A stretch of 64,000 bases of DNA. It comes from Saccharothrix sp. S26. GTDB taxonomy: Bacteria > Actinomycetota > Actinomycetes > Mycobacteriales > Pseudonocardiaceae. The notes beneath the pieces were generated by a model. That model made no database searches and was not told the origin of the DNA. It saw nothing but the letters and a program-made list of their open reading frames with translations. A program made the position numbers and the translations under genes. The stretch covers positions 1-64,000 of the forward strand of contig NZ_JAJUWT010000031.1 in assembly GCF_021390395.1 (NCBI RefSeq), written 5' to 3'. Of this stretch, positions 7,104-11,009 are shown one piece after another. Position 1 is the first letter of the stretch; every line of letters begins with the position of its first letter.

Positions 7104-8165
7104 ATGGAGGTCTTCTGGCACGACGCCTGCCTGGAGCACGACACCGGCACGGGGCTGTGGGAGCTGCCCGGCCGGTGGGACTGGCTCGACGCGCCCGAAC
7201 CGCACCCGGAGAACGCGGCCCGGCTGCGCACGTTCCGGCACGCGCTGCGGCACGGCCCGGTCGCGCCGCACCTGTCGTGGTCGACGGGCCGGTTCGCCGA
7301 CGACGAGGAGCTCGCCCGCGTGCACACCCCGTCCTACCTGGCCGGACTGCGCGCCGCGTGCGAGCGCCGCACCGCCGTCGAGGTCAACACCGTCGTCGGC
7401 CCCGGCTCGTGGGACGCGATCCGCGCCGCCGCGGGCACGGCGCTGGCGGCGCACGACGCGGTCGCCACCGGCCGCACGCGCCTGGCCTACGCCCTGGTCC
7501 GCCCGCCCGGCCACCACGCCCAGCCGGACCTGGCCGACGGGTACTGCCTGGTCAACAACGCCGCGCTGGTCGCCGAGACGGCCCGGCGCGCGGGCCGTCG
7601 GGTCGCCGTCCTGGACTGGGACGTGCACCACGGCAACGGCACGCAGGAGGTGTTCCGCGACACCGACGACGTGCTCACGGTGTCGGTGCACATGCGGCAC
7701 GGCCCGTGGGGCGCCAACCACGCCCAGACCGGCGCGCCGGCCGAGTCGAGCCCCTCGAACATCAACGTCGAGCTGTCCCTGGGCGCGGGCGACGAGGCCT
7801 ACCGGCGGGCGCTGGCGGAGATCGCGTTCCCGGCGCTGGCCGAGTTCGGCGCGGACTTCCTGGTCTGCGCGTCCGGCTTCGACGGGTCGGCGTTCGACCC
7901 GAACGGCAGGCACAACCTCACCGCCGCCGGCTACCGGTGGATCGGCCGGGCGGTGTCGGGGCTGGGCCTGCCGACCGTGCTCACGCAGGAGGGCGGCTAC
8001 CTGCGCGGCTACGCGGCCCTGTGCCTGCACGCGCTGGTGGAGGGCCTGCTCGACCTGGACCTGCTGGAGGACCCGCTGGCCTACGTGCCGGACGACACCC
8101 AGCTGGTGGCCGCCGACCTGGCCGAGGCCAGGGCCGCGCTCACCGGCTGGGCGTTCGCCCGCTGA
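7104..8165 (+). CDS. histone deacetylase-like zinc amidohydrolase
   Basis: 353 residues. It matches the arginase/deacetylase fold seen in AcuC, HDAC-like amidohydrolases and acetylpolyamine amidohydrolases. Visible marks are [10 protein letters not shown] (tandem His of the charge relay), [11 protein letters not shown] (zinc-binding Asp and His), SVHMRHG, and FDGSAFDP (second zinc Asp). The Tyr motif appears as [10 protein letters not shown]. It removes acyl groups from Lys or polyamines, and the substrate cannot be told from sequence. There is no clear Shine-Dalgarno before the ATG, so the message may be leaderless. Confidence 0.9.
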
Positions 8166-8186: not shown

Positions 8187-8465
8187 CTACCGGCCGAGGT
8201 GGCCGCGGCCCAGCTTGAGCAGGATCATCGCCAGGTCGCGGCCGTCCGGGCCGAGCTCCTTGTACCGGTTGATCACGTCGATCTCCCGGTTGTGCACGAT
8301 CCGGGTGCCGCCGGCGGCCATCCGCGCCGCGCCGATGATCTTGGAGACCTCGACCCGCCGCTTGACCAGCCGCAGCAGCTCCGCGTCCAGGTGGTCGATC
8401 TCCTGGCGCAGCGCGTCGATGTCCGGGTTGGTGTCGGTCTCCGGGGCGGTTTCGGTGCTGTTCAT
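8187..8465 (-). CDS. chorismate mutase, AroQ type
   Basis: 92 residues, all-helical AroQ-delta type like M. tuberculosis Rv0948c. It converts chorismate to prephenate for Phe/Tyr synthesis. The core is IDALRQEIDHLDAELLRLVKRR (Arg and Lys of the active site), then VSKIIGAARMAAGG and a C-terminal helix. There is no signal peptide and no prephenate dehydratase fusion. In the family this short enzyme is nearly inactive alone and is switched on by DAHP synthase. RBS GAGAGG lies 8 bases before ATG. Upstream lies a Phe/Tyr-codon leader peptide and mutually exclusive hairpins (8512-8618), so it is probably controlled by transcription attenuation. Confidence 0.92.
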   Translation of the reverse strand: MNSTETAPETDTNPDIDALRQEIDHLDAELLRLVKRRVEVSKIIGAARMAAGGTRIVHNREIDVINRYKELGPDGRDLAMILLKLGRGHLGR

Positions 8466-8511
8466 CGTGACGACCTCTCGACTCTGGTTGGAGTCCCAGC
8501 CCTGGCAGCAG

Positions 8512-8618
8512 CGAAGCCCCGGGGTCCGAGGACTCCGGGGCTTCGTGGTGGCTTGTCGGCGCTAGCGGTCCACGGGAGCCGGAGTCCGGTTCCCGTAAAA
8601 AAACTCGAAGTGGGCCAT
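8512..8618 (-). promoter_or_regulatory. predicted phenylalanine attenuator of chorismate mutase
   Basis: Reading leftward: an 18-codon leader ORF (8618-8562), then a hairpin at 8545-8512 (CGAAGCCCCGG ... CCGGGGCTTCG) just before the chorismate mutase start at 8465. GGACTCCGG at 8587-8579, immediately after the Phe/Tyr codons, is the exact complement of CCGGAGTCC at 8538-8530 inside the terminator hairpin. That gives the classic choice between antiterminator and terminator. The terminator lacks a U-run, which is usual in high-GC attenuators but lowers certainty. Confidence 0.7.
8562..8618 (-). CDS. Phe/Tyr leader peptide of chorismate mutase
   Basis: 18-residue peptide MAHFEFFYGNRTPAPVDR, ATG at 8618, TAG at 8562-8564. 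The control codons are TTC GAG TTT TTT TAC. TTT is very rare in this GC-rich genome, so two in a row are a strong sign of selection for slow decoding when charged Phe-tRNA is scarce. GAGG lies 9 bases upstream as RBS. A ribosome stalled there would free the following GGACTCCGG segment to pair with the terminator arm and allow transcription of chorismate mutase. Confidence 0.7.
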   Translation of the reverse strand: MAHFEFFYGNRTPAPVDR

Positions 8619-8681
8619 GCGCACCGCCTCATCATGCCACAGCCCCGGGCTGTCGGTGCCACCCGGTAACGTGGACAGGCG

Positions 8682-11009
8682 ATGAGCGCCTTGTTCGACT
8701 TGCCCTCAAGTCCCCCCGCCTCCCGGCCGAGCGGTTCCCGCTCGGCGCGGCTGCTCGAAGACCTGAACCCGTCCCAGCGCCGGGCCGTCGAGCACTCGGG
8801 CGCCCCGCTGCTGGTCGTCGCGGGTGCGGGCTCGGGCAAGACCCGCGTGCTCACCCGACGCATCGCCTACCTGCTCGCCGAGCGCGACGTGCACCCCGGC
8901 GAGGTCATGGCGATCACCTTCACCAACAAGGCCGCCGCCGAGATGAAGGAACGCGTCGCCGACCTGGTCGGCGCGCGGGCCCGCTCGATGTGGGTGTCCA
9001 CGTTCCACTCGATGTGCGTGCGGGTGATGCGCCGCGAGGCCAAGACCCTCGGCATGTCGTCCAACTTCTCGATCTACGACTCCGACGACACCCGCCGGCT
9101 CATCACGCTGGTGGCGCGCGACCTCGACCTGGACCCCAAGCGCTACCCGGCGCGCACGCTGGCGATCCACATCTCGAACCTGAAGAACGAGCTGGTCGAC
9201 GCCGCCACCGCCAAGGAGCGCGCGGCCAACGACCTGGAGCGCCGCGTCGCCGAGGTCTACGAGGGCTACCAGCGCAGGCTCGGCGACTCGAACTCGCTCG
9301 ACTTCGACGACCTGATCATGCGGACCGTCGAGCTGCTGCAGAACCACCCGGACGTGGCCGAGCACTACCACCGCCGGTTCCGGCACGTGCTGGTCGACGA
9401 GTACCAGGACACCAACCACGCCCAGTACACCCTGGTCCGGGAGCTGATCGGCACGGGCGCCGACGGCGTGCCGCCGGGCGAGCTGTGCGTGGTGGGCGAC
9501 GCCGACCAGTCCATCTACGCCTTCCGCGGCGCCACGATCCGCAACATCGTGGAGTTCGAGCGGGACTACCCGCAGGCCACCACGATCCTGCTGGAGCAGA
9601 ACTACCGGTCCACGCAGACGATCCTGAGCGCGGCGAACGCGGTCATCTCGCGCAACCCCAACCGCCGGGACAAGCGGCTGTGGAGCGACCTGGGCGACGG
9701 CGAGAAGATCGTCGGCTACGTCGCCGACAACGAGCACGACGAGGCGCAGTTCGTCGCGAACGAGATCGACCGGCTGGTCGACAGCGGCGAGGCGAACAAC
9801 GGCGAGATCGCCGTGTTCTACCGCACCAACAACCAGTCGCGCGTGTTCGAGGAGATCTTCATCCGCCTCGGCCTGCCCTACAAGGTGGTCGGCGGCGTCC
9901 GGTTCTACGAGCGGCGCGAGGTGCGCGACGCGCTGGCCTACCTGCGGGCGTTGTCCAACCCCGACGACACGGTGTCGCTGCGGCGCATCCTCAACGTGCC
10001 CAAGCGGGGCATCGGCGAACGCGCGGAGGCGTGCGTGTCGCTGCACGCCGAGCGCGAGCGGATCGGCTTCGCGGCGGCGTTGCGCGACGCGGTGGCGGGC
10101 AAGGTGGCGCTGCTCAACCCGCGGTCGCGCAACGCGATCGCCGGCTTCGTCGAGATGATGGACGAGCTGGGCGAGCTGGTCGAGCGCGGCGACGACGTGG
10201 CCGACATCCTGGAAGCGGTGCTGGAGAAGACCGCCTACCGGGCCGAGCTGGAGGCCAGCGAGGACCCGCAGGACCACACCCGGGTCGAGAACCTGAACGA
10301 GCTGGTCACCGTGGCCCGCGAGTTCACCGACCTCGGCACGGCGGTCCCCGTGCCCGATGAGGACGAGGGGCTGCCCGCCGAGGGTTCGCTGGCCGCGTTC
10401 CTGGAGCGGGTGTCGCTGGTCGCGGACGCCGACTCGGTGCCCGACGCGGAGTCCGACGGCGTGGTCACGCTGATGACGCTGCACACCGCCAAAGGCCTGG
10501 AGTACCCGGTGGTGTTCTGCACCGGCTGGGAGGACGGCGTCTTCCCGCACCTGCGGGCCCTGGGCGACCCGACGGAGCTGGCCGAGGAACGCCGCCTGGC
10601 CTACGTGGGCATCACGCGCGCCCAGCAGCGGCTGTACCTGTCGCGGGCGCTGGTGCGCTCGGCGTGGGGCCAGCCGTCGGCGAACCCGGCGTCGCGGTTC
10701 CTGGACGAGATCCCGGCCGACCTGCTCGACTGGCGGCGGGTGGAGCCCAAGCGCACCGCGCCGTCCGCGCCGACGTCGTGGAGCCGCGGTTCGGGTCCGT
10801 CGCGGCCGGCGCCGACGAACGCGGCGTGGAAGGACACGCCCGCGCTCAAGCTGGACGTGGGCGACCGGGTGAGCCACGACAAGTACGGGCTCGGCCGCGT
10901 GGTGGCCGTGGACGGCTCGGGGCCCCGGGCGACGGCCACGATCGACTTCGGCGGCGCGGGGACGGTGCGGCTGATGCTCATCGGCGGCGTGCCCCTCGTG
11001 AAGCTCTGA
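8682..11009 (+). CDS. pcrA: ATP-dependent DNA helicase UvrD/PcrA
   Basis: 775-residue superfamily 1A 3'-5' helicase, equivalent to mycobacterial UvrD1, acting in nucleotide excision repair and in clearing replication blocks. Motifs in order: Q motif LNPSQRRAVEH, Walker A GAGSGKTR, motif Ia TFTNKAAAEM, DEYQDTN (Walker B), GDADQSIYAFRGA, motif IV LEQNYRST, motif V TLHTAKGLEYP and motif VI RLAYVGITRAQ. The C-terminus holds the small Tudor-like RNA polymerase-binding domain (GDRVSHDKYGLGRVVAVDG). A TAACGT -10-like box at about 8662 lies so close to the ATG that the message may be leaderless. Divergent from the chorismate mutase leader. Confidence 0.96.
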   Translation: MSALFDLPSSPPASRPSGSRSARLLEDLNPSQRRAVEHSGAPLLVVAGAGSGKTRVLTRRIAYLLAERDVHPGEVMAITFTNKAAAEMKERVADLVGARARSMWVSTFHSMCVRVMRREAKTLGMSSNFSIYDSDDTRRLITLVARDLDLDPKRYPARTLAIHISNLKNELVDAATAKERAANDLERRVAEVYEGYQRRLGDSNSLDFDDLIMRTVELLQNHPDVAEHYHRRFRHVLVDEYQDTNHAQYTLVRELIGTGADGVPPGELCVVGDADQSIYAFRGATIRNIVEFERDYPQATTILLEQNYRSTQTILSAANAVISRNPNRRDKRLWSDLGDGEKIVGYVADNEHDEAQFVANEIDRLVDSGEANNGEIAVFYRTNNQSRVFEEIFIRLGLPYKVVGGVRFYERREVRDALAYLRALSNPDDTVSLRRILNVPKRGIGERAEACVSLHAERERIGFAAALRDAVAGKVALLNPRSRNAIAGFVEMMDELGELVERGDDVADILEAVLEKTAYRAELEASEDPQDHTRVENLNELVTVAREFTDLGTAVPVPDEDEGLPAEGSLAAFLERVSLVADADSVPDAESDGVVTLMTLHTAKGLEYPVVFCTGWEDGVFPHLRALGDPTELAEERRLAYVGITRAQQRLYLSRALVRSAWGQPSANPASRFLDEIPADLLDWRRVEPKRTAPSAPTSWSRGSGPSRPAPTNAAWKDTPALKLDVGDRVSHDKYGLGRVVAVDGSGPRATATIDFGGAGTVRLMLIGGVPLVKL

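Follow-up and report, generated by a model that had tools for sequence, protein, structure and literature searches.

A probable leaderless leader-peptide attenuator with Phe and Tyr codons upstream of the aroQ chorismate mutase gene in Saccharothrix and other actinomycetes

The chorismate mutase gene aroQ of Saccharothrix sp. S26 is probably (we would say with a probability of roughly 85%) controlled by ribosome-mediated transcription attenuation, in which a leaderless leader peptide would sense charged tRNA-Phe and perhaps also tRNA-Tyr. Attenuation of this kind had been proposed in a first-pass annotation of the same DNA, and the reading is supported by conserved codons, by covarying and mutually exclusive helices and by the association of the leader with aroQ. 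The window, as used below, is the whole stretch of 64,000 nucleotides that was analysed; in it the leader and aroQ lie on the minus strand, where the order, read 5' to 3', is a CATGAT box, a leader ORF opening with GTG at 8624, a hairpin, the hexamer GAGAGG and the ATG of aroQ at 8465.

The controlled gene (8187–8465, minus strand) encodes a type II chorismate mutase of 92 amino acids. The annotation had placed an AroQ-type enzyme downstream of the leader, and this is borne out by the match of the product to Pfam PF01817 (CM_2; E 5e-10, 39.9 bits, above the cut-off of 27); the enzyme presumably belongs to the delta subclass. The likely Shine-Dalgarno sequence of aroQ, GAGAGG (8474–8479, minus strand), is invariant in 25 members of the genus. 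A UvrD/PcrA-like helicase gene (8682–11009) runs in the opposite direction to aroQ, and a histone-deacetylase-fold gene (7104–8165) converges on it.

The leader ORF (8562–8624, minus strand) consists of 20 codons followed by TAG (8564–8562), encodes VRMAHFEFFYGNRTPAPVDR and has a probable leaderless GTG start. Judged on coding capacity, it is a short upstream ORF enriched in codons for the end products Phe and Tyr, the regulatory codons being TTT TTT TAC (Phe Phe Tyr; codons 8–10, 8595–8603, minus strand), and it is these codons that point to tRNA-Phe, tRNA-Tyr or both as what would be sensed. The shorter frame of 18 codons that was originally described, with TTC GAG TTT TTT TAC, is present and extends from ATG 8618 to TAG 8562 on the minus strand, the annotation having named no strand. 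The pair of TTT codons had been called striking, and rightly so: together with the next T they make a run of seven, the sole run of at least seven T or A in the window, and the three neighbouring genes that were counted use TTC 31 times and TTT not at all. Of the 97 leaders described below, 88 use TTT for the first Phe of the motif, and some leaders retain just one Phe plus Tyr (FPYG, FSYG). We speculate that a near-constant TTT at the first Phe codon may give a sharper response.

The start of the leader is where the annotation has to be corrected. It had proposed an ATG start with a ribosome-binding site, and GAGG (8630–8627) is indeed found 8 nt before ATG 8618, yet the two go together in 4 of 25 genus loci; an NTG at codon 1 (8624) is kept in 25/25 and an ATG at codon 3 in 12/25. 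Start codons were surveyed in 177 loci, namely the 97 leaders and the 80 pattern loci described below, amongst which there are 22 repeats of an identical 100 nt. The distance from the end of a [CT]A...T hexamer to an in-frame NTG is 6 nt in 110 loci and 7 nt in 45, that is, in 155 of 177, and every other spacing occurs in 0–18 loci; after removal of identical sequences the box stands 6–7 nt before an NTG in 134 of 155. The box-spaced starts are GTG in 135 cases and ATG in 20. None of these 155 has AGGA, GGAG or GAGG 4–15 nt upstream, and over the full 15 nt preceding the start an SD-like site is present in 4/134, the window included. A –10-like box 6–7 nt before a start codon that has no Shine-Dalgarno sequence is the layout of leaderless actinomycete mRNAs. 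Because of the conserved box spacing and the near-absence of SD-like sites, we have moved the start of the leader to GTG 8624, which is probably leaderless, in preference to ATG 8618; a second start at ATG 8618 is conceivable in this strain. The –10-like hexamer of the window is CATGAT (8631–8636, minus strand), 6 nt before GTG 8624, and from the conserved box transcription is predicted to begin with the first base of the leader, at or next to 8624.

Three helices compete within the leader region, all on the minus strand. Segment 1, GGGAACCGG (8586–8594), is the 5' arm of hairpin 1:2, the 3' arm of which is CCGGCTCCC (8574–8582). Segment 2, GGACTCCGG (8579–8587), overlaps both of these arms and is the 5' side of an antiterminator, whose 3' side, segment 3 (CCGGAGTCC, 8530–8538), lies inside the 5' arm of the terminator-like hairpin 3:4 (CGAAGCCCCGGAGTCCTCGGACCCCGGGGCTTCG, 8512–8545, –26.5 kcal/mol). 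The helices 1:2, 2:3 and 3:4 are mutually exclusive and placed so that stalling of a ribosome on the leader would favour 2:3. The nine-base complement noted by the annotation is confirmed, GGACTCCGG at 8587–8579 matching exactly CCGGAGTCC at 8538–8530 in the 5' arm of the hairpin 8545–8512. As for the attenuator geometry read from it, the exact pairing stands; the antiterminator is longer than nine bases in the predicted fold (7+4+5 pairs), and the hairpin of the window has no U tract. The two conformers of the window are near balance (antiterminator –27.3 vs terminator –28.2 kcal/mol), and the fold of the 165-nt region has a z score of –3.35, with 0 of 200 shuffles equally stable. It should be noted that 166 of 5000 dinucleotide shuffles (3.3%) also yield an exact complement of at least nine bases between the leader and what follows it, so that the complement by itself is suggestive and one sequence would not decide. 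That frequency is what could be said for the ORF and the complementarity being accidental and the hairpin an ordinary terminator or a repeat; conservation, covariation, the association of the pattern with the gene and the swap test, all given below, contradict this, and we have rejected the chance and ordinary-terminator readings on leader conservation and arm swaps, with a residual probability close to nil.

The attenuation that we favour would proceed as follows. Transcription would start at GTG 8624 and, as the spacing of the box suggests, a ribosome would load at the 5' end of the RNA. Under a shortage of charged tRNA-Phe (or perhaps tRNA-Tyr), the ribosome would stall at TTT TTT TAC, codons 8–10, covering segment 1 partly or wholly and leaving segment 2 free; segment 2 would then pair with segment 3 once this has been transcribed, and the resulting antiterminator would block 3:4 and allow the polymerase to proceed into aroQ. 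When Phe and Tyr are ample, the ribosome would reach the TAG at 8564–8562 and cover part of segment 2, whereupon 3:4 would form and transcription would stop before aroQ. The folds predicted for the window were compared for different ribosome positions, given that the footprint of a ribosome extends about 15 nt ahead of the P site. If the empty A site is at codon 8 or 9, the fold of lowest energy before segment 4 has been transcribed is the antiterminator; when the ribosome stands at the Tyr codon a shorter antiterminator remains (–18.8 kcal/mol), and when it stands at the stop codon the antiterminator cannot form and the terminator alone is left. When no ribosome is present, the finished transcript has 1:2 and 3:4, and before completion it is the antiterminator, rather than 1:2, that is preferred. 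Once complete, the transcript takes up the terminator fold whichever of the tested ribosome states is imposed, so that antitermination must be kinetic, that is, a matter of timing.

The genus genomes all contain aroQ (25/25), and the leader precedes the main copy in 25/25; second aroQ-like paralogues in two of them (L026, L027) are without a leader. In the wider order, an aroQ match was obtained in 135 of 150 genomes, and 88 of the 133 non-genus genomes with aroQ were inspected, comprising the 28 best-scoring and 60 picked down the list for spread. The resulting 113 loci (25 from the genus and 88 others, with the paralogues L026 and L027 and the locus L028 outside the set) include 97, from 14 families, in which a properly placed short ORF upstream of aroQ matches F[FYSPLC][YF][GYV]. 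The same motif was found in 0/113 reverse complements and 2/2260 shuffles, a control that is not blind because the motif was fixed after the first loci had been inspected. By family, the motif is present in f1 in 42/42 loci, f8 12/19, f4 12/16, f16 8/8, f15 4/6, f2 5/5, f13 4/4, f5 3/3, f3 2/3, f11 1/2, f10 1/2, and f7, f9 and f12 1/1 each. The 16 misses are of several kinds: L076 and L097 have a leader just beyond the searched stretch, L069, L070, L075, L107 and L112 have variant leaders, and a clear leader is absent from the inspected sequence upstream of aroQ in L058–L063, L082, L095 and L114, with a differing upstream context, judged by eye, in L060, L061 and L063. Two of these loci, L058 and L059, share a GGTCTGTTTCACGGTGAA stretch upstream of aroQ where there is no F-F-Y leader, and L058 also has another short ORF; the GGTCTGTTTCACGGTGAA region is possibly a replacement regulator.

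The association holds in the reverse direction as well. A search with the leader DNA pattern TTTTTYTAYGGNNNCCGGNNNNCGGNNNCCGT alone, which makes no reference to aroQ, had at least 119 matches in named genomes, of which 80 were examined as loci; 13 of these 80 repeat loci of the set of 113. The matches include Saccharothrix, Lentzea, Amycolatopsis, Pseudonocardia, Prauserella, Mycobacterium and relatives, and further ones come from Blastococcus, Nakamurella, Rhodococcus sp. HNM0569 and others. Of the 80 loci examined, 78 have an aroQ-like frame in the same orientation no more than 700 nt away, and in the remaining two the sequence ends 111 and 146 nt after the start of the pattern; a DAHP synthase gene was found downstream in 0 of these 80. 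Typical actinomycete leader–aroQ DNA is also present in two records, L216 and L235, whose labels, Bacillus sp. AZ43 and Candidatus Melainabacteria, look wrong.

The helices were compared across relatives in alignment A2, made up of 51 of the 97 leaders, from 9 of the 14 families, hand-chosen for spread and similar spacing (families f3, f9, f10, f11 and f15 were omitted). In hairpin 1:2, 90.8% of cells are paired, with a covariation score of 0.238 against 0.079 for shuffled alignments and 43 double-changed cells against a shuffled mean of 12.3; one pair alone shows AU, UG, CG, UA and GC. In the antiterminator 2:3, 87.4% of cells are paired, the covariation score is 0.218 against 0.123, and there are 29 double-changed cells against a shuffled mean of 6.0. 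The covariation score was reached by 0 of 500 shuffles for 1:2 and for 2:3, and on a cruder measure, which simply counts the pairs in which both sides have changed, 5/500 and 13/500 shuffles did as well, respectively; as segment 2 belongs to both helices, the two tests are not independent. Sliding a helix by one column lowers pairing to 59.3% or 43.6% in 1:2 and to 69.5% or 47.3% in 2:3. The arm core of the terminator 3:4 is nearly invariant in relatives, so that covariation is uninformative for this helix and gives it no support; RNAalifold on A2 recovered 1:2 and 3:4. A G-rich stretch such as CCGGGG also recurs past the terminator (columns ~144–155 of A2), and could pair with the CCCCGG of segment 3.

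A swap test that is less open to relatedness was made by alignment-anchored exchange of the downstream arm between families. Leaders pair with their own arms at an average of –21.84 kcal/mol and with swapped ones at –18.12, and 3 of 3000 swaps were equally good; in a control using the start of the leader, 828 of 1000 were as good, meaning that there is no effect. In two of the nine families (f2 and f13) the trend is reversed, the arms pairing more stably with leader segments from other families than with those of their own leaders. An earlier and looser hairpin search mis-called several terminators and was replaced; in a swap test on those hairpins, with some arms mis-assigned, the fraction was 0.016 and the means for f3, f4, f5, f8 and f15 showed no advantage over swapped pairs. 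The relatives thus bear out what the annotation had asked of them, in that the codons and the pairing are both conserved (97/113 loci, covariation of 1:2 and 2:3, 3/3000 swaps).

It might be suggested that the peptide itself is active, through nascent-chain arrest or as a free small protein, and that FFYGxRxPxPV is kept for its amino acids, given that the peptide is well conserved across families. However, the residues after FFY sit on both arms of 1:2 and vary as RNA pairing requires, the N-terminal residues and the length vary, and the coevolution of segments 2 and 3 is a property of the RNA; we consider an active peptide very improbable.

The nature of the downstream hairpin deserves more caution. 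After GGGGC the window reads TTCGCTGCT; there is no T tract in the genus of the window, and a consensus terminator scan gave no terminator. In alignment A2, the 9 nt that follow the hairpin contain on average 3.7 T in f1 and 3.0 in f7, and 5.0–6.5 in f2, f4, f5, f8, f12, f13 and f16. In the fold predicted for the whole region, moreover, the GG of the aroQ Shine-Dalgarno sequence pairs with the leader GACC at 8570–8567, from which a translational share in control is possible. Attenuation could then act at the level of translation or be linked to Rho, stalling either altering access to the ribosome site of aroQ or shielding the RNA from Rho, and 3:4 would not be a terminator. The absence of a T tract in the genus and the pairing of the Shine-Dalgarno GG are consistent with this, and there are precedents: translation attenuation is mentioned for mycobacteria in the part of PMC13236596 that was available, and Streptomyces leaders have hairpins that lack a U stretch (PMC8079986, in the part available). 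Against it, 32 nt separate the end of the hairpin from the Shine-Dalgarno sequence, several other families have T-rich tails after the hairpin, the stretch that links hairpin and Shine-Dalgarno sequence differs amongst members of the genus, and some genus loci do not have the leader GACC. On balance, control through translation or Rho seems unlikely, if distinctly less so than an active peptide, and transcription attenuation remains the preferred reading.

The leader may have counterparts at another step of the pathway. A covariance model built from the 51 chorismate mutase leaders of A2 has matches at E ≤0.01 in 79 of 296 genomes of a sample of the class and in 24 of 149 of a sample of the phylum, and not all of the weak ones are leaders. 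In the genome of the window it finds one copy; the 11 weaker matches there were set aside, two being on the other strand of the leader site and nine falling in coding sequence or at gene ends that have hairpins. Amongst these nine, L162 has GFWYG at the apparent end of a longer frame. R1 matches without a gene match among L187–L211 were mostly terminator-like and were dropped. In a putative Streptomyces-like genus, f33, nine inspected leaders resemble MLTHPTFLFTYGNRPTGCHGRAA and precede aroQ (by eye and tblastn, with Pfam for one). The model also matches leaders that precede DAHP synthase genes in other families and classes (PF00793 and PF18152 in the four checked), and these contain Phe, Tyr and Trp codons, as in MQRNFWRFYGYRP and MKRYFWFFG. 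Trp occurs in 28 of 29 such leaders vs 10 of 97 chorismate mutase leaders, counts that are descriptive only, owing to relatedness and hand-picking; in one of those 10 Trp is adjacent to the F-F-Y core. The 29 were picked for an aromatic-rich ORF; L197 and L201, which also have Trp, were left out, and outside the 29 there are also L149, which is cut short, and L194, which has no aromatic-rich ORF. The DAHP synthase leader loci (L142, L147, L150–L153, L155, L158–L160, L172–L186, L190, L196, L199 and L200) have a terminator-like hairpin, and many have TATAGT ~7 nt before the start codon.

In the genome of the window, no aromatic leader was seen in the ~500 nt inspected upstream of the genes for type II DAHP synthase (L331) and PDT (L335), which may themselves be transcribed as leaderless mRNAs. 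Rfam at the gathering score gave no match in the window and 20 relative loci, the best sub-threshold match in the window being F6 (25.1 bits vs 46, plus strand), and none in five DAHP synthase leader loci tested. It is tempting, though with a little under an even chance of being right, to suggest an old actinobacterial family of aromatic attenuators that spans the phylum and has its sensor codons matched to the step controlled, Phe/Tyr for chorismate mutase and Phe/Tyr/Trp for DAHP synthase. The two groups of leaders may be related by common descent or may have converged.

If the attenuator operates as proposed, there would be Phe/Tyr-sensing control at the aromatic branch point in many actinomycetes, including antibiotic-producing genera and mycobacteria. 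The near-constant rare TTT and a switch balanced at –27.3 and –28.2 kcal/mol would lend themselves to clean tests in organisms that have leaderless mRNAs and, should the DAHP synthase leaders prove to have the same ancestry, a single RNA design would have been adapted to two steps of the pathway through its choice of codons. As far as we found, an attenuator is undescribed for this aroQ gene; the class of mechanism is old and leaderless leaders are known. In the openly licensed literature, to the extent of the matches listed and the parts of the papers available, we found no report of a leader at an actinomycete chorismate mutase gene, and the word chorismate is absent from the main text of the papers checked on actinomycete or bacterial attenuation and small ORFs, PMC8079986 included. 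A comparative survey of 2005, in the part available, reported that operons for Phe and Tyr showed no conserved RNA structure (PMC1262725).

How does the aroQ leader compare with the systems that are known? The pheL leader of E. coli has its own ribosome site and a long Phe run, whereas the leader here is probably leaderless and has an F-F-Y core. The leader of aroR–aroF was reportedly described by Neshat et al. in 2014, and the Cys-rich leaderless sORF attenuators of mycobacteria are said to go back to Canestrari in 2020. E. coli pheL–pheA is similar to the arrangement here in that a leader peptide precedes a chorismate mutase gene under the control of Phe-charged tRNA; the E. coli enzyme is a fused CM-PDT and AroQ here is short and stand-alone, the likeness resting on the description in the portion of PMC11802643 available. 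In C. glutamicum, the aroR leader, which contains Phe-Tyr-Phe, precedes aroF (DAHP synthase), and transcription rises under Phe limitation, Tyr being without effect (PMC11802643 and PMC4046766, in part). By that description aroR too is an actinomycete leader peptide with Phe/Tyr codons, although it controls DAHP synthase and the leader here chorismate mutase. The leu, ilv and trp leaders of Streptomyces lividans are transcribed without a 5' UTR, as ours probably is, and some of their hairpins have no U stretch; they serve other amino acids, and none of the eight named in the available part of that paper is for Phe (PMC8079986). The Cys-rich leaderless sORF attenuators of mycobacteria and the ilvB1 attenuator of Mtb belong to the same order and are likewise mediated by a uORF, but, in the parts of the sources at hand, they respond to Cys or branched-chain amino acids, unlike the Phe/Tyr codons of the aroQ leader (PMC13236596, PMC9094748).
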